Shown here piece after piece: positions 2,774 to 61,416 of a stretch of DNA of 64,000 nucleotides (positions are counted from its first letter, which is position 1; every line of letters begins with the position of its first letter). The notes below the pieces were generated by a model, which saw only the letters and a list, made by a program, of their open reading frames with translations, was not told the origin of the DNA and did no database searches. Source of the DNA: Rubrobacter aplysinae (GTDB taxonomy: Bacteria > Actinomycetota > Rubrobacteria > Rubrobacterales > Rubrobacteraceae); contig NZ_LEKH01000004.1 of the NCBI RefSeq assembly GCF_001029505.1, positions 13,230 through 77,229 on the forward strand. Direction: 5' to 3'. Made by a program: the position numbers and the translations under genes.

Positions 2774-3958
2774 CTAGCCGAAGAGGCCGCCGACCCAGCC
2801 CGTCACCCGGCCCGTGGTCTTCTGCCAGAAGGAGGCCTCGTCGTAACCCTTCGAGGCAATAAGGGCGGTAGTGCCGACGCTTTCGCCGTCTACTATCGCC
2901 TCTAGCTGTCCGACCTCGTCGCCCTTCTTTGCGGAAGGCGGCAGCTCGCCGCCCCGGACCCGGCGCTCGACCTCTGCGCCCTCCTCGACGGTGGACGAGA
3001 TCGTGTCCGCCGCCGTGAGGTCTATCGAGCGGCCCCGGAACGGGATCTCCTTCTCTGAGTAGACCTGGCCCTCTTTAACGAGCGGCCGCTGCTCGAAGTT
3101 GCCGAAGGCGTAGTTCAGGACGTTCTCCGAGGAGGTGGTAACGGCTTCCTGGGAGTCCGCGCCGAGCACGGCGGCGATGTACGACTCCTCCTGGGCCTCC
3201 GCCGAGGAGATCAGCATGTAGCCCGCGCTGCCCGAGGTGCCGGTCTTGACGCCGGTGGCGGGCGGGTACTGGGCGAGCAGCTCGTTCGTGGTGTAGACCT
3301 GGATCTCCCGGTCCTCCATGCCCTTGGTCTCGATGGTGGCCTGGGTCTGGCCCACGAGCTTGCGGAACAGGTCGTACTCCATCGCGGCGCTCGTGATCTT
3401 GAGCAGGTCGGACGCGGTAGAGTAGTTGTTCTCCTCGTCTATGCCGGTGGGGTTGGTGAAGTTGGTGTTCTCCAGGCCGAGCTCTTCGGCCTTCTGATTC
3501 ATCTGCTGCACGAACTGCTCGACGCTGCCGCCCCCGACGTACTCGGCGAGGGCGTAGTCGGCGTCGGTGCCCGAGGGGATGAGCGAGGCCGCCAGGAGAT
3601 CCCGGGCCTCCACGCTCTCGCCGCTTATGAGGCCTATGTTGCTGTAGGTGTTGCCCACGTACTCCTCTGCGCCCTGAGAGATCACGACCTGCTCGTCCAG
3701 GTCCGCGTCGCTCTCAAGCGCAACGAGGGCGGTCATCACCTTCGCGGTCGAAGCCATCTTTATCTGCTCGTCCGGCTTCTCGCTGGCGAGTACCCGCCCG
3801 GAGCCCGCGTCGGCCACCGCCCAGGACTGTGCCTCCACCTCGGGACCGGACTGCTGCGCCTCGGCGCGGTCCACGGCTCCTCCAATCGCCAAAGCCGTGG
3901 CGAGCGTCAGCGTCAGGAGAAAGGCCGAAGCCCTGGCTAGGTCGAGCGTCTTATACAA
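2774..3958 (-). CDS. dacA: D-alanyl-D-alanine carboxypeptidase (class C low-molecular-mass PBP, S11 family)
   Basis: An exported D,D-carboxypeptidase that trims the terminal D-Ala of peptidoglycan stem peptides. The TTG start at 3958 has GGGAGG seven bases upstream and gives 394 residues; a longer frame from 4000 has no such signal. The N-terminal hydrophobic segment (about 8-28) ends at a signal cleavage-like region before AEAQQSG. Catalytic motifs are S-T-A-K (about 70-73), S-G-T in IPSGTDADYAL (about 129-131) and K-T-G in GVKTGTSGS. The second motif has Thr where S-x-N is usual. A C-terminal beta domain and a hydrophobic final segment (GWVGGLFG) suggest peripheral membrane attachment. Confidence 0.9.
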   Translation of the reverse strand: MYKTLDLARASAFLLTLTLATALAIGGAVDRAEAQQSGPEVEAQSWAVADAGSGRVLASEKPDEQIKMASTAKVMTALVALESDADLDEQVVISQGAEEYVGNTYSNIGLISGESVEARDLLAASLIPSGTDADYALAEYVGGGSVEQFVQQMNQKAEELGLENTNFTNPTGIDEENNYSTASDLLKITSAAMEYDLFRKLVGQTQATIETKGMEDREIQVYTTNELLAQYPPATGVKTGTSGSAGYMLISSAEAQEESYIAAVLGADSQEAVTTSSENVLNYAFGNFEQRPLVKEGQVYSEKEIPFRGRSIDLTAADTISSTVEEGAEVERRVRGGELPPSAKKGDEVGQLEAIVDGESVGTTALIASKGYDEASFWQKTTGRVTGWVGGLFG

Positions 3959-4112
3959 CCTTGATCCTCCCTTTGATGAAACCTGAAACTGAATTCCCAC
4001 TATCGATAAGGCACAATCTGTTCGTTATCATAGACCATCTCTAAAAAGACGAAAATACTATATAATCGCTCGGTGTTACCAATTCGGGTGGCGTCGAGGA
4101 GAAGCCTAGCTC

Positions 4113-5234
4113 TTGGATTACCAAGCATTTGCATTCGGGTGCTTCCATTTCGGATTGCGAGGTCCTACTCCTAATAACTTTACTGTAAGTGACTTCCTGG
4201 AAGAGGTAGAGAAGGCACTCAGAGCCGTCCCTAATGTAGATAATGTGAGAGCAAGTTGTGACGATGAATTCCTCAAAGAAAAGTTAGGATCGCTTGACAG
4301 TCCTCCATCCATCAAATCCGGGAGCTTTCCATATCCCCATCTCCCTCATGGAGACATCTCATTTGATTTGCTTGTTCCCAAAGGAGTACAGAGGGAGTTC
4401 GCAAGATCTTACTTGCCTCTTACTTTTACTGAACGCTTTAGAGTAGAGATTTTTTATGAGTATCATTTTCCTGTGGCTACTATTGAGCTGATTAGCCCTA
4501 CTGAAGAGCCAGAGCCTTCCGAGGCAGTCATAATAATCAGAAGACTGCTAGAGCGGGAATTCGAGCGGCAGCAGGGTCTAATCGATTTTCAGTTCACAGG
4601 ACCTAGCCCCATCCATGCAGATTTTTACCTAATTGGCCGAGATAGTGAACAAGAAGATACTTGGGATTTCGACTTGGAGGTAGAGCGCTCACGAGCGTAC
4701 GATAGATACGAAATATTTTTCAATGAGTCTCTATTTTCCGAGCCAAACGAAGCTCTGAGTGAACTCAAGTTTTCTATACTCTCCGAATTGGATCTTTTCT
4801 ATCTAATAGCTCAACTAGAACGGCAAAAAGGCATATCTTGGGAACAAGTCAATCAGCTAACGCGCTCCTTGACTGCCTTGCATCAGCGTAAAGGGGCAAG
4901 GGCTTTCGTAGCTAGGTTACTCAAGTCCACTAACATAGTAAACGAGGCCTTTGTGACGCTAGCAGAATTTGAATCAAATGACATATTATCTTACAGTATG
5001 TTGCAAGACTCTTACAGCCAAGTATACACGGCAGACGCTTATCCTTACATCAAAAATCTAGTAGACAAGAGAATGAATGCTCGGGAAAAGTATCCAACTA
5101 AGCAAGTAAGTTCCCTCTTGCAAATTTTCGAGACTCGACGGCTTACTGCTCTTGAGATAAGAGTAGCGCTCATATCTGCTGTATCTGGTGGGGCGGTCGG
5201 AGCTCTTGTCTCTACGATCGTATCCAATCCGTAG
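4113..5234 (+). CDS. Orphan hypothetical protein with C-terminal membrane segment, AT-rich
   Basis: A 373-residue protein I do not recognise. The first about 340 residues look soluble and mixed alpha/beta, rich in Phe, Glu and Ser, with no recognisable catalytic motif. The last about 25 residues (ALISAVSGGAVGALVSTIV) form one hydrophobic segment near the C-terminus, suggesting a tail anchor with the bulk in the cytosol. Start TTG 4113 follows GAGGAG at 4095-4100 with long spacing; TATAAT at 4061-4066 is a likely -10. The gene and its flanks (about 3990-5280) are clearly AT-rich and use A/T-ending codons unlike the neighbours, which points to horizontal acquisition between dacA and the glycine operon. 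Confidence 0.7.
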   Translation: MDYQAFAFGCFHFGLRGPTPNNFTVSDFLEEVEKALRAVPNVDNVRASCDDEFLKEKLGSLDSPPSIKSGSFPYPHLPHGDISFDLLVPKGVQREFARSYLPLTFTERFRVEIFYEYHFPVATIELISPTEEPEPSEAVIIIRRLLEREFERQQGLIDFQFTGPSPIHADFYLIGRDSEQEDTWDFDLEVERSRAYDRYEIFFNESLFSEPNEALSELKFSILSELDLFYLIAQLERQKGISWEQVNQLTRSLTALHQRKGARAFVARLLKSTNIVNEAFVTLAEFESNDILSYSMLQDSYSQVYTADAYPYIKNLVDKRMNAREKYPTKQVSSLLQIFETRRLTALEIRVALISAVSGGAVGALVSTIVSNP

Positions 5235-5283
5235 TACGCTTGATGGACGTTATATGCTAGTCTCTGGTCAACTCATAGAAGGC

Positions 5284-5490: not shown

Positions 5491-5580
5491 GTAGTGGCAG
5501 TGCTTGGCAGAGGGCTACGAGGAGCCGTGCCGGGTAGAGCCGTACGTCCGCCCAAAAAGACCCAAGGGGGTAGAACCGCC

Positions 5581-6867
5581 GTGGCGCGATTCACACCGCA
5601 CACCGAGGAAGACATCCGGGAGATGCTCGACACCGTCGGCGTCGAGACCCTGGACGACCTCTTCGCCGACGTCCCGACGAAGTTCGAGGGGGCGCTGGAT
5701 CTCCCGCCCGCGCTATCGGAGCACGAGGCGCTCACCGACGTCCACAAGGCCGCCGCCGAGAACCGTTCTGGCATGCCGCTATTTATCGGGGCCGGGGCCT
5801 ATGACCGCATCGTGCCCTCGGCCGTCGGCTCCATGATGCAGCGCGGAGAGTACCTGACCGCCTACACGCCCTACCAGCCCGAGGTCAGCCAGGGCGGGCT
5901 GCAGGTGATCTTCGAGTTCCAGTCCATGATCTCCGAGCTAACCGGCCTCGAAGTCTCCAACGCCTCTGTCTACGACGGCGCAACCGCCGTCGCCGAGGCC
6001 GCCCTGATGACGGCTCGCCTAGCCAAGCGCGACGCGAAGGTGGCGGTCTCGGCGGGCCTCAACCCGCGCTACCGGCAGGTCATAGAGACCTACCGCGTCG
6101 AGACCGTCGAGCTGCCGTTCGAGAACGGCGCGACCGACTTCTCCGCCGTCCCCGACGACGTATCCGGCGTGTTCGTGCAGAGCCCGAACTACCTCGGCGT
6201 CGTCGAGGATATCGAGGCGGCCTCCGGAGCGGCCCACGAGAACGGGGCGCTCGCCGTCGCCGTCTGCGACCCGACCGCCCTCGCCGTGCTCGAAGCTCCG
6301 GGCGCTCTGGGTGCGGACATCGCCGTTGGCGAGGCGCAGCCCCTGGGGATGCCGCTCCTGTTCGGCGGGCCCTACGCCGGGTACATGGCGACGACTGGGA
6401 AGAACGTGCGCCAGCTACCGGGCCGTATATGCGGCGAGACCGTGGACGAGGACGGCAGGCTCGCCTACGTGCTCACCCTCCGGGCCCGGGAGCAGGACAT
6501 CCGGCGCGCCAAGGCGAACTCCAACATCTGCACCAACCAGGCGCTGACCGCGCTCGCCGCGACCGTGTACACCGCGCTGATGGGGCCGGAGGGCCTGCGC
6601 GAGGTGGCCGAGCTCTCCGTCTCCAAGGCCCACTATCTGGCGGACCGGCTACAGGAGAAGGGCGTTAGCCTGCGCTACCCGGAGGCGCCATACCTGTTCG
6701 AGTTCGCCGTCGAGCTTGAGGACGTGGATAAGACCAACGCCGCGCTCTTGGAGAACGGCATCGTCGGCGGGCTGGATACGGGAGACGGGGCGATGCTCAT
6801 CGCCGTCACGGAGAAGCGCACCAAGGAAGAGCTGGACAAGTTTGCGGAGGTGGTAGCCAATGCTTAG
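5581..6867 (+). CDS. gcvPA: Glycine dehydrogenase (decarboxylating) subunit 1, P-protein alpha
   Basis: N-terminal half of the split PLP-dependent P-protein. With GcvPB it decarboxylates glycine and passes the aminomethyl group to lipoyl GcvH. The typical N-terminus ARFTPHTEEDIREML begins at GTG 5581, preceded by AAGGGGG (5564-5570), so the longer frame from 5494 is rejected. The protein is about 428 residues, near the family length. Motifs such as GAGAYDRIVP, TPYQPEVSQGGLQ and SNICTNQAL are characteristic. It is the first gene of gcvPA-gcvPB-gcvT-gcvH and overlaps gcvPB by 8 bases, suggesting translational coupling. It sits behind the glycine riboswitch. Confidence 0.95.
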   Translation: MARFTPHTEEDIREMLDTVGVETLDDLFADVPTKFEGALDLPPALSEHEALTDVHKAAAENRSGMPLFIGAGAYDRIVPSAVGSMMQRGEYLTAYTPYQPEVSQGGLQVIFEFQSMISELTGLEVSNASVYDGATAVAEAALMTARLAKRDAKVAVSAGLNPRYRQVIETYRVETVELPFENGATDFSAVPDDVSGVFVQSPNYLGVVEDIEAASGAAHENGALAVAVCDPTALAVLEAPGALGADIAVGEAQPLGMPLLFGGPYAGYMATTGKNVRQLPGRICGETVDEDGRLAYVLTLRAREQDIRRAKANSNICTNQALTALAATVYTALMGPEGLREVAELSVSKAHYLADRLQEKGVSLRYPEAPYLFEFAVELEDVDKTNAALLENGIVGGLDTGDGAMLIAVTEKRTKEELDKFAEVVANA

Positions 6868-13226: not shown

Positions 13227-14091
13227 CGCCGCCGGCCTCCACTACCTCACGACAGGCCCGGCTGACGCGCCGCCGCTACTGCTCCTGCACGGCTTCATGG
13301 GTTCGTCGTCGGAGTGGGAGGAGGTAGCGGACGCCCTCTCCGAAGACTACCGGCTACTGATACCGGACCTCCCCGGCCACGGAGCCTCCACCGGACTATC
13401 GTACCCGGACGCTTACACCATGCAAGGCGCATCCAACACCCTGCTCGCGCTACTAGATACCGAAGACGTGACCCGCTGCGCCGTCGCCGGGTACTCGATG
13501 GGCGGTCGCCTCGCGCTGTACCTGGCCCTCCGCCATCCCGAACGCGTAAACCGCCTCCTGCTCGAAAGCGCCTCCCCCGGCCTAGCCACCGAGGAAGAGC
13601 GTGCTGCCCGCCGCGCCGCCGACGAGAGGCTGGCCCAGCGCCTGGAGACCGAAAGCTTCCAAGAGTTCGTCGAGGACTGGTACCGACAGCCCCTCTTTGC
13701 CACCCTCGCCCGCGACGAGCGACTGCTGCGCCGCACCATCGAGTCCCGTCTGCACAACGACCCGCACGAGCTAGCCCGCTCCCTGCGCGCGATGGGCACT
13801 GGTAGTCAGCCGTCACTATGGGAGGAGCTGTCAAATTTGAGCGTGCCTACGCTGCTCGTTGTGGGGGAGGAGGATGAGAAGTTCGTTCGGATTGCGCGGG
13901 AGATGGAGAGGGTGAGGGCGGAGGTGCAAGTAGTTACGATACCTGGTGCGGGACATAGTGTGCATGCTGAAGCTACCGGGGAGTATATGAAAACAGTAAG
14001 AGTTTTACAGAAGAACTATGAGTGGCAACAAAGGAAGCTAGAAAGAAACGGATCGAGTGGAGCAAGCTACCTACCGACCTCGATATGTTAA
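13219..14091 (+). CDS. menH: SHCHC synthase, alpha/beta hydrolase; 3' end apparently rewritten
   Basis: An alpha/beta hydrolase eliminating pyruvate from SEPHCHC to give SHCHC. It has the oxyanion-hole HGFMGSSSEW, nucleophile elbow GYSMGGRLAL, Asp in the strand ending VVGEEDEKF, and catalytic His in GAGHSVHAE. ATG 13219 overlaps the menD stop. Family members end a short helix after the His; here that helix is followed by about 25 basic, low-conservation residues (from about YEWQQRKL) read out of frame over the next gene. Base composition shifts to A/T-rich from about 13985, suggesting that foreign DNA joined inside the 3' end of menH. All catalytic residues remain, so it is probably still active. 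Confidence 0.87.
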   Translation: MPDAAGLHYLTTGPADAPPLLLLHGFMGSSSEWEEVADALSEDYRLLIPDLPGHGASTGLSYPDAYTMQGASNTLLALLDTEDVTRCAVAGYSMGGRLALYLALRHPERVNRLLLESASPGLATEEERAARRAADERLAQRLETESFQEFVEDWYRQPLFATLARDERLLRRTIESRLHNDPHELARSLRAMGTGSQPSLWEELSNLSVPTLLVVGEEDEKFVRIAREMERVRAEVQVVTIPGAGHSVHAEATGEYMKTVRVLQKNYEWQQRKLERNGSSGASYLPTSIC

Positions 14092-14465
14092 ATGTGATAT
14101 ATAAAAAATACTATGAAGACTTCTTAAATCATTCCGAAGATAGACCTATCAGAAGCAGCAGAATATATGTGCCTATCAGCGTTGATGAGGTAGCAGGCGA
14201 GTTGAAGACGGATGGGGATATAGTTTTTGGCCGACTCTACTATCACTTAGATGAAAGATACGGATATCGCACTGAAGATGACAAGATGGTTCATCTCTTT
14301 GCGAGGGAAGTTGAGGAAGATTGGCACTGCGTTAACTTCCCTTATGTTGTATCTATACTCGCCTCTTTACAAGAAGAAAACAGGAAGTATCGTACTGCCA
14401 CTTTAGTATCAGTAACATCACTTTTTGTGGCTGCAGTGTCGTTGATTCTGTCTATATTTATTTGA
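14022..14465 (+). CDS. Orphan hypothetical protein, C-terminal membrane anchor, AT-rich
   Basis: A 147-residue protein I do not recognise. The N-terminus is basic (KEARKKRIEW). The middle is acidic and aromatic, with a segment that could be a small winged-helix-like fold (ISVDEVAGELKTDGDIVFGRLYYHLDERYG). The last about 20 residues (TLVSVTSLFVAAVSLILSIFI) are a clear tail-anchor helix. It starts at GTG 14022 inside the menH reading frame, overlapping by 70 bases in another frame. Codon use is strongly A/T-ending, unlike the neighbours. Size and layout (soluble domain plus C-terminal anchor) recall the other AT-rich orphan at 4113-5234, though I see no sequence similarity. Confidence 0.6.
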   Translation: MATKEARKKRIEWSKLPTDLDMLNVIYKKYYEDFLNHSEDRPIRSSRIYVPISVDEVAGELKTDGDIVFGRLYYHLDERYGYRTEDDKMVHLFAREVEEDWHCVNFPYVVSILASLQEENRKYRTATLVSVTSLFVAAVSLILSIFI

Positions 14466-14545
14466 ATCTAGTAGCTAACCAATCAGCCCAAAGCTTTCTC
14501 AAATTGGCAAGGGGTAGTTAAAGAGGTATGGTCGCCAGGCATTCG

Positions 14546-14563
14546 GTATAACTTCGGTTATAC
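14546..14563 (+). promoter_or_regulatory. Palindromic operator/promoter of mazEF
   Basis: A perfect inverted repeat, GTATAAC (14546-14552), TTCG, GTTATAC (14557-14563), ends seven bases before the antitoxin ATG. It contains a -10-like TATACT (14559-14564). No Shine-Dalgarno lies before the ATG, so the transcript may be leaderless. MazE-type antitoxins usually bind such palindromes to repress their own promoter; that role is inferred here. Confidence 0.65.
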
Positions 14564-14570
14564 TTACCCT

Positions 14571-14807
14571 ATGAAGACTGCCATATCCATATCCGACGAA
14601 CTTTTCGAGTCTGCGGAGCAATTTGCCGGCAGGAAGGGGATGTCACGCAGCGAGCTTTACGCCGCCGCGATCCGGCAATACTTGCGCGAGCACCGCAGTG
14701 AGGGCGTTACCGAGCGGCTGGATGAGATCTACGGAGCCGATCCGGGTACTCTTGAGCCTGGCTTGTCGCAGCTACAATCCCGTAGCTTACCGAAAGAAGA
14801 GTGGTAA
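14571..14807 (+). CDS. mazE: Ribbon-helix-helix antitoxin (MazE-like)
   Basis: A 78-residue protein. The N-terminal KTAISISDELFESAEQF and SRSELYAAAIRQYLREH form a classic ribbon-helix-helix DNA-binding fold (residues 2-45). An acidic, probably flexible C-terminus would bind the toxin. The ATG is only seven bases after a perfect palindrome, with no ribosome binding site. Its stop overlaps the GTG start of the toxin by seven bases, the usual layout of antitoxin-toxin operons. It lies between menH and menB, in the same orientation. Confidence 0.88.
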   Translation: MKTAISISDELFESAEQFAGRKGMSRSELYAAAIRQYLREHRSEGVTERLDEIYGADPGTLEPGLSQLQSRSLPKEEW

Positions 14808-15145
14808 TCCGGCGCGGTGAGATCTGGTGGGCCGGGTTGTCCGGACCAGAGGCTTCCGAGCCGGGCTATCGGCGTCCGGTCCTGATCGTGCAGTCCGACG
14901 AGTTCAACGAGAGCCGCATCGGGACCGTGATCGCGGCGGCGCTGACTACGAACCTGCGGTTGGCGGAGGCGCCGGGTAACGTGCCGGTCGAGGTCGAAGA
15001 TACCGGTTTATCCAGAGAATCGGTCGTGAACGTCTCACAGCTCGTTACCGTGGATAGATCCTTCCTCGTGGAGCGTGCCGGTCGAGTAGAGGACCGAGTC
15101 ATGTTGCGGGTGGATGACGGCATCCGGCTAGTGCTGGCGTTGTAG
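14801..15145 (+). CDS. mazF: MazF/PemK-family mRNA endoribonuclease toxin
   Basis: A 114-residue toxin. [10 protein letters not shown] at the N-terminus, the [14 protein letters not shown] strand-loop with the conserved Arg, and the [14 protein letters not shown] segment are diagnostic of the MazF/PemK fold. Such toxins cut single-stranded RNA at short sites; the target triplet or longer site cannot be predicted. Translation starts at GTG 14801, overlapping the antitoxin end. All family residues look intact, so the toxin is probably active when freed from the antitoxin. Confidence 0.92.
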
Positions 15146-28789: not shown

Positions 28790-30055
28790 ATGCCGGAACA
28801 GGAATCCCACACTTCGAGAGAAGAGACGATCAAGTCTCAGGTCTCTGAGGGAATCGAAGAGGCAAAGCAATTTGCGAAGTCGCTTAACTTAGAGGAGGCC
28901 AAGAATGGAGAGTGGTTCCTCGAGTTACTACGAAAAGTCGTATACTCCTACGACCGTAACGCTAGGGCCGAGTATTTTCAGCAGAAGTATCCGGGGCTAT
29001 CTCCAGATGAGATCGCGGACATACTGACATCCGTAACGACCCGGTACGCTACCGTCGCTGGAGGGCTGGCCGGGGCAGCGGCGACCGCGAGCCAGATAGC
29101 TACCCTGGGCTCCTGGGGTATGACGGCTTCTCTGTTTGTGGGCACTATCGGTGCTGAAATGATATATCTCGCAAGGATTCAGATGCGGCTGGTGCTCGAC
29201 CTCTCCGTCGTCTACGATCTCCAGCTCGACCCGGAAGACCCCGAGGATGTCCTGATGGTCTTCGGCTACGCTCTCGGCGTCGCACCGACGGACTTGGTTG
29301 GCAGAGGGGCCCGGAAGGCTGCTGGACACGGAACCGAATGGTTGATCAAGAAGTACATTAGCAAGGGCGTACTGGAAGCGATACAGCGTTTCGCTAAAAA
29401 GCTGGGCCTAAAGATACTGCAACGCACCATCATCAAGTACACGGTCCCCGTGGCTTCGGCTGCCGTGGGCAGCACTTACAATTACATAACTACCAAATCT
29501 ATGGGCGAGATCGCCAAAGCCCACTTCAGAAACAGACACCAGTTCACCGAGGAGTTACAGGGTCTGGTGTCACGCCGGAACACGTATGACCTCGTATTTC
29601 CGGCTGCCACGATGTACATGGCACACCTCGACGGCGAGCTTTCACCGAAGGAACGAGAGCTCTATAAGGCTATGCTTTCACGTATGTCGTTTACCGAGCA
29701 CACGCAGGTTGAGTTTAAGAGGTTCGTGGATGACGAGGCGAATCTCATCGAAGCGGCCGCCGGTATAGATGATATTGAGCTACGGCGCAGTCTGATGGAT
29801 GTGCTCATATTAATGGCGGTCTGTGATGGCGAGCTGGACGAGAAAGAGCGCAGGTTTTTGGTGAACATCGCCGGGCGGTTGGAGGTGTCTCTAAATCTGG
29901 AGGAGGTCGAGAAGATGAGCCGAGACTACCGGGAGACTGTCGAGCGAGGTGTGGTCGAGAAAACGGCGAGCAGCGTAAAAGACACGGCTACGATGGCTAG
30001 CGGCAAAGTCAAAGGGTTTGGAAAGGTTCTCAAAAGAACGGATGCAGAAGTCTAA
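28790..30055 (+). CDS. EcsC/TerB-like membrane-associated protein
   Basis: A 421-residue protein of uncertain function. Residues about 30-75 are helical and charged. Residues about 82-125 contain two hydrophobic segments (GGLAGAAATASQIATL, TASLFVGTIGAEMIYL) and a third lies near 205-225; this layout resembles EcsC-like proteins. The C-terminal part (about 265-370) has two helical repeats with acidic loops, AHLDGELSPKERELY and VCDGELDEKERRFL, matching the metal-binding TerB-like fold. The tail is basic and low-complexity. ATG 28790 follows AGGGGAAGGG. GC content is lower than in neighbouring genes. It stands alone after pgl and is followed by an unusual structured region. Confidence 0.65.
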   Translation: MPEQESHTSREETIKSQVSEGIEEAKQFAKSLNLEEAKNGEWFLELLRKVVYSYDRNARAEYFQQKYPGLSPDEIADILTSVTTRYATVAGGLAGAAATASQIATLGSWGMTASLFVGTIGAEMIYLARIQMRLVLDLSVVYDLQLDPEDPEDVLMVFGYALGVAPTDLVGRGARKAAGHGTEWLIKKYISKGVLEAIQRFAKKLGLKILQRTIIKYTVPVASAAVGSTYNYITTKSMGEIAKAHFRNRHQFTEELQGLVSRRNTYDLVFPAATMYMAHLDGELSPKERELYKAMLSRMSFTEHTQVEFKRFVDDEANLIEAAAGIDDIELRRSLMDVLILMAVCDGELDEKERRFLVNIAGRLEVSLNLEEVEKMSRDYRETVERGVVEKTASSVKDTATMASGKVKGFGKVLKRTDAEV

Positions 30056-60594: not shown

Positions 60595-61416
60595 GGGCGC
60601 GTCCGCAAATCATAGCCACAGGGTCACAGTCGCCAAGGTCAACATCCCACCGTAGTTCGCAACTCGCTTCTCATACCGGGTGGCTATGCGCCGCCACTGC
60701 TTGAGGCGATTGATCAGCCGTTCCACCAAGTTTCGCTCGCGGTACGCCTCCCGGTCGAAGTTTTCGTCCCTACTCTGGTCCGAGCGCACCGGGATTACGG
60801 ACTTTACCTGCTTGCTGTTCAGAAGTTCGCGGATGCGCTCGCTGTTGTAGCCCTTGTCTGCCACCACGCACTCGGGACGTAGCTTGGGACGGCCTCTGTC
60901 GGCTCGCTTCACCGACCCTGTTTCAAGCAGCGGCTCGAACATCGAGGCCTCGTGTCTGTGGCCGGCCGTGACTAGAAACGCCAGGGGTTTGCCGTACCCT
61001 TCAGCTTTTAGGTGGATTTTCGAAGTGAAACCTCCGCGGCTCCTGCCAAGAGCTTCATCTTCCTGGCAGCTACCTTTAGCACCGGCCGCATGCTGGTGGG
61101 CGCGTACGGAGCTGCCATCTACAAAGTGTTTGGACCAGTCGATGTCTCCCTGCTGGTCAGAACCTCGCTGTAGCTCATCGAGGACCTTCTGCCACACTCC
61201 AGAGGCTGTCCAACGGTAAAAGCGGCTTGAAGCAGTCTTCCACGATACTCCTGCCTCGGCGGGAAGATCGCGCCACGGCGCACCGGTGCGGGCGACCCAT
61301 AGTATGGCCTCGATCACCACGCGATGGTCACGCGCAGGTCGCCCGCGTACAGGCTCTTGTGGGGGCAGGTGCGCCAACAGACGTTGCCACTGCTGCTCGG
61401 TCAGCACCCACCTCAT
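60595..61416 (-). mobile_element. IS5-family insertion sequence (IS427-like), one end recognised
   Basis: GGGCGCGTCCGCAAATCAT at 60595-60613 looks like the terminal repeat at the 3' end of the transposase gene, overlapping its stop. I could not find a matching inverted copy past the gene start (61417-61545), so the other end is unclear: degenerate, or deleted. The element separates the gluconate genes from the MOSC gene. Confidence 0.7.
60610..61416 (-). CDS. IS5-family DDE transposase
   Basis: A 268-residue transposase in one intact frame. The N-terminal domain has LTEQQWQRLLAHLPPQ and ILWVARTGAPWRDLP. Catalytic residues are Asp in FVDGSSVRAHQHAAGAKG, Asp in VVADKGYNSERIREL and Glu in RNLVERLINRLKQWRRIATR. 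Many IS427-group elements need a frameshift; this copy reads through. It may therefore be active, if its ends are intact. Confidence 0.95.
   Translation of the reverse strand: MRWVLTEQQWQRLLAHLPPQEPVRGRPARDHRVVIEAILWVARTGAPWRDLPAEAGVSWKTASSRFYRWTASGVWQKVLDELQRGSDQQGDIDWSKHFVDGSSVRAHQHAAGAKGSCQEDEALGRSRGGFTSKIHLKAEGYGKPLAFLVTAGHRHEASMFEPLLETGSVKRADRGRPKLRPECVVADKGYNSERIRELLNSKQVKSVIPVRSDQSRDENFDREAYRERNLVERLINRLKQWRRIATRYEKRVANYGGMLTLATVTLWL

Follow-up and report, generated by a model that had tools for sequence, protein, structure and literature searches.

The window, i.e. the whole 64-kb stretch of DNA analysed here, carries at 4113–5234 (+ strand) a gene that reads from a TTG start into a protein of 373 aa. 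It is flanked upstream by a divergent D-Ala-D-Ala carboxypeptidase gene (Peptidase_S11, E 4.4e-53; 2774–3955, − strand, start placed near 3955 by reading) and downstream by a glycine riboswitch aptamer (RF00504; 5276–5395, + strand), which scores 60.9 bits (gathering score, 32) and is hence real, so that the gene does lie directly before a glycine riboswitch, as the initial annotation had it. The following ORF (5494–6867, + strand), with an E <= 1e-50 match in 30 of 37 genomes, is presumably gcvPA, which encodes subunit 1 of the glycine cleavage P protein.

The gene stands out by its composition, with a GC content of 0.441 vs 0.659 across the whole window, a GC3 of 0.41 and a CAI-like score of 0.297, the lowest among 57 ORFs (median 0.708, second-lowest 0.477), a comparison set of non-overlapping frames picked greedily, some of which may not be genes. 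The AT-rich island spans 3961–5280: it begins at about 3961, just outside the carboxypeptidase start, and stops at about 5280, at the onset of the riboswitch, with 60-bp bins of 0.35–0.57 GC giving way to bins of 0.68 and 0.65. The sharp break in composition and codon usage first noticed over about 3990–5280 is hence borne out by these figures. Two expression signals were read directly from the sequence: a possible −10 element, TATAAT (4061–4066, + strand), and a possible ribosome-binding site, GAGGAG (4096–4101, + strand), 11 nt upstream of the TTG. The former is not accompanied by a good −35 element and was not picked up by the promoter scan, which returned 2 sites vs 1.6 in shuffles, i.e. 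no excess.

The reading frame is intact over its 373 codons and ends in a predicted membrane helix, in agreement with the initial annotation. Windows of 19 residues with a hydropathy of at least 1.6 start only at positions 349 and 351–353, and the helix covers residues about 350–371 (codons 5160–5225, + strand) and contains GGAVG. One hydrophobic helix near the C-terminus and no other is the hallmark of tail-anchored proteins, and in its hydropathy profile the protein, with its predicted membrane insertion, resembles the bacterial tail-anchored membrane proteins (PMC3087755, PMC6794478). Because the sole hydrophobic stretch sits at the very C-terminus, the body of the protein is expected to reside in the cytoplasm, and nothing was found in support of the cell-surface role initially considered.

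Other features of the window deserve mention. The only other 1122-bp segments (step 50) below 0.50 GC start at about 13.7–13.95 kb, and an AT-rich stretch at about 13850–14700 surrounds a second AT-rich gene (14022–14465, + strand; 147 aa, single C-terminal membrane helix) that overlaps an alpha/beta-hydrolase gene, probably menH, at the latter's 3′ end. No relative of this second gene was found in Pfam, PADLOC, plasmids, phages or viral contigs, and the window thus holds two AT-rich tail-anchored orphans about 10 kb apart at most. Just 3′ of it lies a toxin–antitoxin-like pair (14571–15145, + strand) made of an RHH-like 78-aa ORF (matches below cut-off) and a PemK/MazF-like toxin (1.9e-26). 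Furthermore, a 421-aa gene at 28790–30055 (+ strand) has a low GC3 (0.66) and ranks second from the bottom in codon score, its product matching Pfam TerB, weakly EcsC, and PADLOC PDC-S29 (4.1e-07), and an IS4/5-type transposase gene (DUF4096 and DDE domains; 60610–61416, − strand) is a sign of mobile DNA.

Two remote relatives and their shared features

The protein has two full-length relatives, one encoded in a bacterial genome (G391) and one on a viral contig (L004). The G391 protein was retrieved by a single-sequence search and, aligned through its frame, shares 34% identity over residues 5–371 (E 3.6e-66); the copy holds one in-frame TAG, and BLASTP of residues 82–372 against the open part of the gene gives 169 bits. 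G391 belongs to another class than the genome of the window, as its class, sampled with 40 genomes, contains no member of the window's family. The G391 genome is 65% complete, and the 15-kb contig that carries the relative could be misbinned. The L004 protein (370 aa, 25% identity) aligns end to end with residues 4–371 at 127 bits in BLASTP, and was found by running the pattern GPSPxHADF over viral contigs, two of which matched, L004 being one. For comparison, 500 shuffles of the window protein reached at most 23.1 bits with the G391 protein and 27.3 bits with the L004 protein; judged by these alignments, both are real relatives.

The motif GPSP[FI]HADFY occurs in all three members, as GPSPIHADFY at residues 163–172 of the window protein. 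It was picked from the window sequence, and its presence in L004 is given by construction; as the G391 protein was found without the motif and carries it independently, its conservation is nonetheless shown. The densest invariant block across the three proteins, 9 residues within positions 161–180, includes this motif. The C-terminal helix with GGxxG is likewise present in 3/3 members, with a mean hydropathy of at least 1.6 over 19 residues. As a separate observation, the C-terminal helix of a short protein (L058, genome G398; 136-aa open frame) closely resembles the helix of the family (VGGIVGAVVTTILS) and is perhaps a reused membrane tail.

Given these two remote full-length relatives, the term orphan overstates the isolation of the protein. 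The window protein has no match in NCBIfam, PHROGs or PDB sequences, and none of the three members matches NCBIfam or PHROGs at E <= 0.1. The Pfam matches to APH (0.044) and HrpJ (0.15) for the window protein and to GAPES1 (0.0089) for the L004 protein fall short of the gathering scores, and none of them is shared by another member; the sole PADLOC-DB 2.0.0 match of the window protein, MTase_II (E 0.013, 12.3 bits), is not credible; neither relative has a PADLOC match at E <= 0.001. A search of the full-text literature for GPSPFHADF gave no match. Judged by this literature and by the Pfam, NCBIfam, PHROGs, PADLOC and PDB libraries, the family is probably undescribed.

Structure prediction from two-row alignments reached a pLDDT of 38 for the whole protein and 44 for residues 1–205, and a Foldseek search with the 1–205 model, too poor to trust, returned nothing at E <= 0.001 (best 0.06 in PDB and 0.08 in BFVD). 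The low-confidence model places strands at 8–16, 44–49, 80–87, 108–115, 119–127 and 156–162, from which we infer that the N-terminal half may form an alpha/beta domain.

Several further candidates were set aside. A locus of an uncultured Acetatifactor (L002), picked for the exact word EIFYEYHF, shows 45% identity over residues 79–125 and was rejected as a chance match: its ORF was reported by the profile neither on the locus (E <= 1) nor in its genome (E <= 10), which yielded a single match, at 12.6 bits, to a C-terminal helix at another place. A 277-aa protein of G1039 (locus L070), which we believe to resemble the tRNA hydroxylase MiaE, matched at 19.7 bits over residues 219–339 and was left out of the counts, and L005 and L059–L068 carry the DNA word and hold no relative at E <= 1.

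Distribution and insertion site

The gene is single-copy in its genome and, among the 39 genomes that represent its family here, occurs only in the window's own. It is absent from the other 38, which comprise G001–G035 plus G372, G380 and G394, the latter three being counted as covered by the phylum search going by their handle numbers. In that search, 2/396 genomes matched, namely the window's own and G391. The gene is therefore not a fixture of this site among close relatives, and no library returned a clear housekeeping family for it, so that the two findings that the initial annotation had named as fatal to its reading did not materialize.

A profile search over overlapping genome samples gave a concordant picture, with 1 genome out of 295 in the window's phylum (G391), 1 out of 40 in the class of G391 (G391 itself) and 1 out of 398 in the phylum of E. 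coli, the latter match (G1039) being later dropped. The searches of the phylum of the Acetatifactor genome (0/398) and of the class of E. coli (0/303) were empty, and uninformative given that these sets have no known positive. No homologue was detected by tblastn in plasmids or phages, the DNA of the L004 gene had no match in E. coli genomes, and scans of viral contigs gave nothing or L004 alone. The family is rare in the sampled sets.

The initial annotation had proposed a comparison of the dacA–gcvP interval in relatives. In 18 stretches from 16 relatives (19 from 17 before L049 of G019, for which the wrong side had been taken, was dropped), the region upstream of gcvPA holds varied genes, and no 250-bp bin below 0.53 GC lies within 1.25 kb of gcvPA. 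G013 is the sole relative in which a dacA homologue stands beside the riboswitch without the insert, on two contigs, with 148 bases separating the two alignments on one of them. This arrangement suggests, short of proof, the pre-insertion state of the site, the G013 carboxypeptidase being 48–54% identical to that of the window and possibly another dacA. Composition and distribution together show a horizontal acquisition, in which the gene came to lie between dacA and the riboswitch as a cargo of one gene.

The carboxypeptidase of the window (2774–3955) is itself closer to a protein from another genus (72% identity, G016) than to the best one from its own genus (56%), which suggests that the neighbourhood was rearranged apart from the insertion; the carboxypeptidase gene itself may have been exchanged.

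Genomic context of the relatives and possible role

The whole 15-kb contig of G391 is rich in genes of defence type. It encodes a BrxHII/HmaA/DrmD-like helicase (2.5e-103; truncated at the beginning of the contig), a methyltransferase of 1232 aa akin to DrmMI and type IIG enzymes (4.5e-127), a PDDEXK nuclease matching PADLOC PDC-S02 and Pfam NucS_C (1.3e-52) and a SIR2 protein (6.2e-14). Such genes make up 4 of the 7 neighbours run through PADLOC, the contig having 10 neighbouring ORFs that reach 90 aa, and are to be taken as types and not as proven systems, the helicase and methyltransferase models of PADLOC being broad. Among 8 neighbours compared with PHROGs, only helicase, methyltransferase, DNA-binding and unknown families were recognised, and no phage structural family. 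Beside the SIR2 gene, two further ORFs of this contig (L053, 10092–11042 and 12270–13007) have no Pfam match at E 0.001; the former has what we regard as a TIR-like look, and the latter matches a PHROGs DNA-binding family (4.4e-10).

L004 is a fragment of a P2-like phage (gpU, 1.8e-39; Tail_P2_I; tail collar fibre), in which the gene sits between the gpU and tail-fibre genes with a GC content of 34% vs 50% for the remainder of the contig. Each of the three loci has other immediate neighbours, in keeping with a single-gene system. On either side of the gene, the gaps at the window and L004 loci contain only ORFs of 31–44 aa, of chance size, any longer ORF overlapping the gene itself or a neighbour, and small ORFs of 47 and 63 aa lie alongside the G391 copy; by these sizes, a partner gene is unlikely at the window and L004 loci and possible in G391. 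Each context is represented by a single relative, one in a defence island and one in a phage contig, numbers too small for statistics, and no known defence gene adjoins the gene in the window.

These contexts recall known systems in part. According to Rousset 2022 (PMC9122126), P2-like prophages carry a single-gene system and one with transmembrane proteins, and the transmembrane components of known systems are regarded as suicide effectors. Like the systems of P2-like and P4-like elements described there, L004 presents an AT-rich gene in a P2-like contig, with no fixed neighbour and a membrane helix; unlike them, its gene lies by the gpU and tail-fibre genes, outside the gpA–gpQ hotspot. The distinction from these systems is drawn from Pfam and PADLOC models, which give no credible match. 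Similarly, the G391 relative adjoins a helicase and a DrmMI-like methyltransferase as in BREX/DISARM-type and type IIG restriction loci, whereas the protein matches none of their components and the window copy stands alone.

Considering the single gene, the expected cytoplasmic body, the membrane tail and the phage and defence loci, the simplest account is a stand-alone anti-phage protein that would kill or arrest the cell, or keep the phage out, at the membrane, and we give it an even chance. The gene would then stem from a rare and mobile family of single genes, whose products join a cytoplasmic domain to a membrane tail. The candidacy for phage defence that had been put forward gains from context, i.e. 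the G391 island and the P2-like contig, and not from PADLOC, in which no match is credible. In such a protein, some 200 residues would form an alpha/beta domain in the cytoplasm that senses or acts on a phage product and contains the GPSP[FI]HADFY loop, whose residues 163–172 may be the working or binding site. A helical middle would couple this domain to the C-terminal helix, the GGxxG packing motif might let copies associate in the membrane, and the protein would then either damage or depolarise the membrane (abortive infection) or block phage entry there (exclusion). This domain layout is drawn from the sequence and the low-confidence model, and sensing, oligomerisation and membrane action are proposals built upon it.

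Three other accounts have to be weighed. A prophage lysogenic-conversion gene that stayed behind in the chromosome, and whose product serves superinfection exclusion or lysogeny fitness at the membrane and kills no cell, would agree with the membrane anchor and with the AT-rich relative in a P2-like phage contig; we deem it rather unlikely, as the window gene is flanked by dacA-like and gcvPA genes and by no recognised phage structural gene, as the eight G391 neighbours compared with PHROGs match no phage structural family, and as the G391 copy lies among defence-type genes. The intact 373-aa frame with its possible −10 element and Shine-Dalgarno sequence, and the retention of motif and helix at 25–34% identity, argue against an ordinary host or regulatory function or a functionless passenger brought in with transferred DNA, and despite the single occurrence in the family (1/39 genomes), which speaks for it, this explanation is unlikely.

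A toxin, or one half of a toxin–antitoxin or interbacterial system kept for its own stability and not for defence, appears quite improbable: the single AT-rich gene with a membrane tail, the small ORFs flanking the G391 copy and the separate PemK/MazF-like toxin gene 9.6 kb off in the window point that way, but the gaps at the window and L004 loci carry only chance-size or overlapping ORFs and no secretion signal is seen.

The anti-phage reading can also be put in a more specific and more tentative form, to which we give somewhat less than even chances: the tail-anchored proteins would be a new anti-phage family encoded by single genes, with an undescribed cytoplasmic domain around GPSP[FI]HADFY as sensor or catalyst and the GGxxG helix acting on the membrane, and phages and defence islands would have carried it into at least two classes of the same phylum and into a P2-like phage.

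The gene is more than an orphan and short of a proven defence system. An unknown single gene on a small AT-rich island typically allows no hypothesis, and here two remote relatives supply a testable one. If the anti-phage reading is true, the defence repertoire would gain a family without credible counterparts in Pfam, NCBIfam, PHROGs and PADLOC, and this family would be shown able to travel as one gene.
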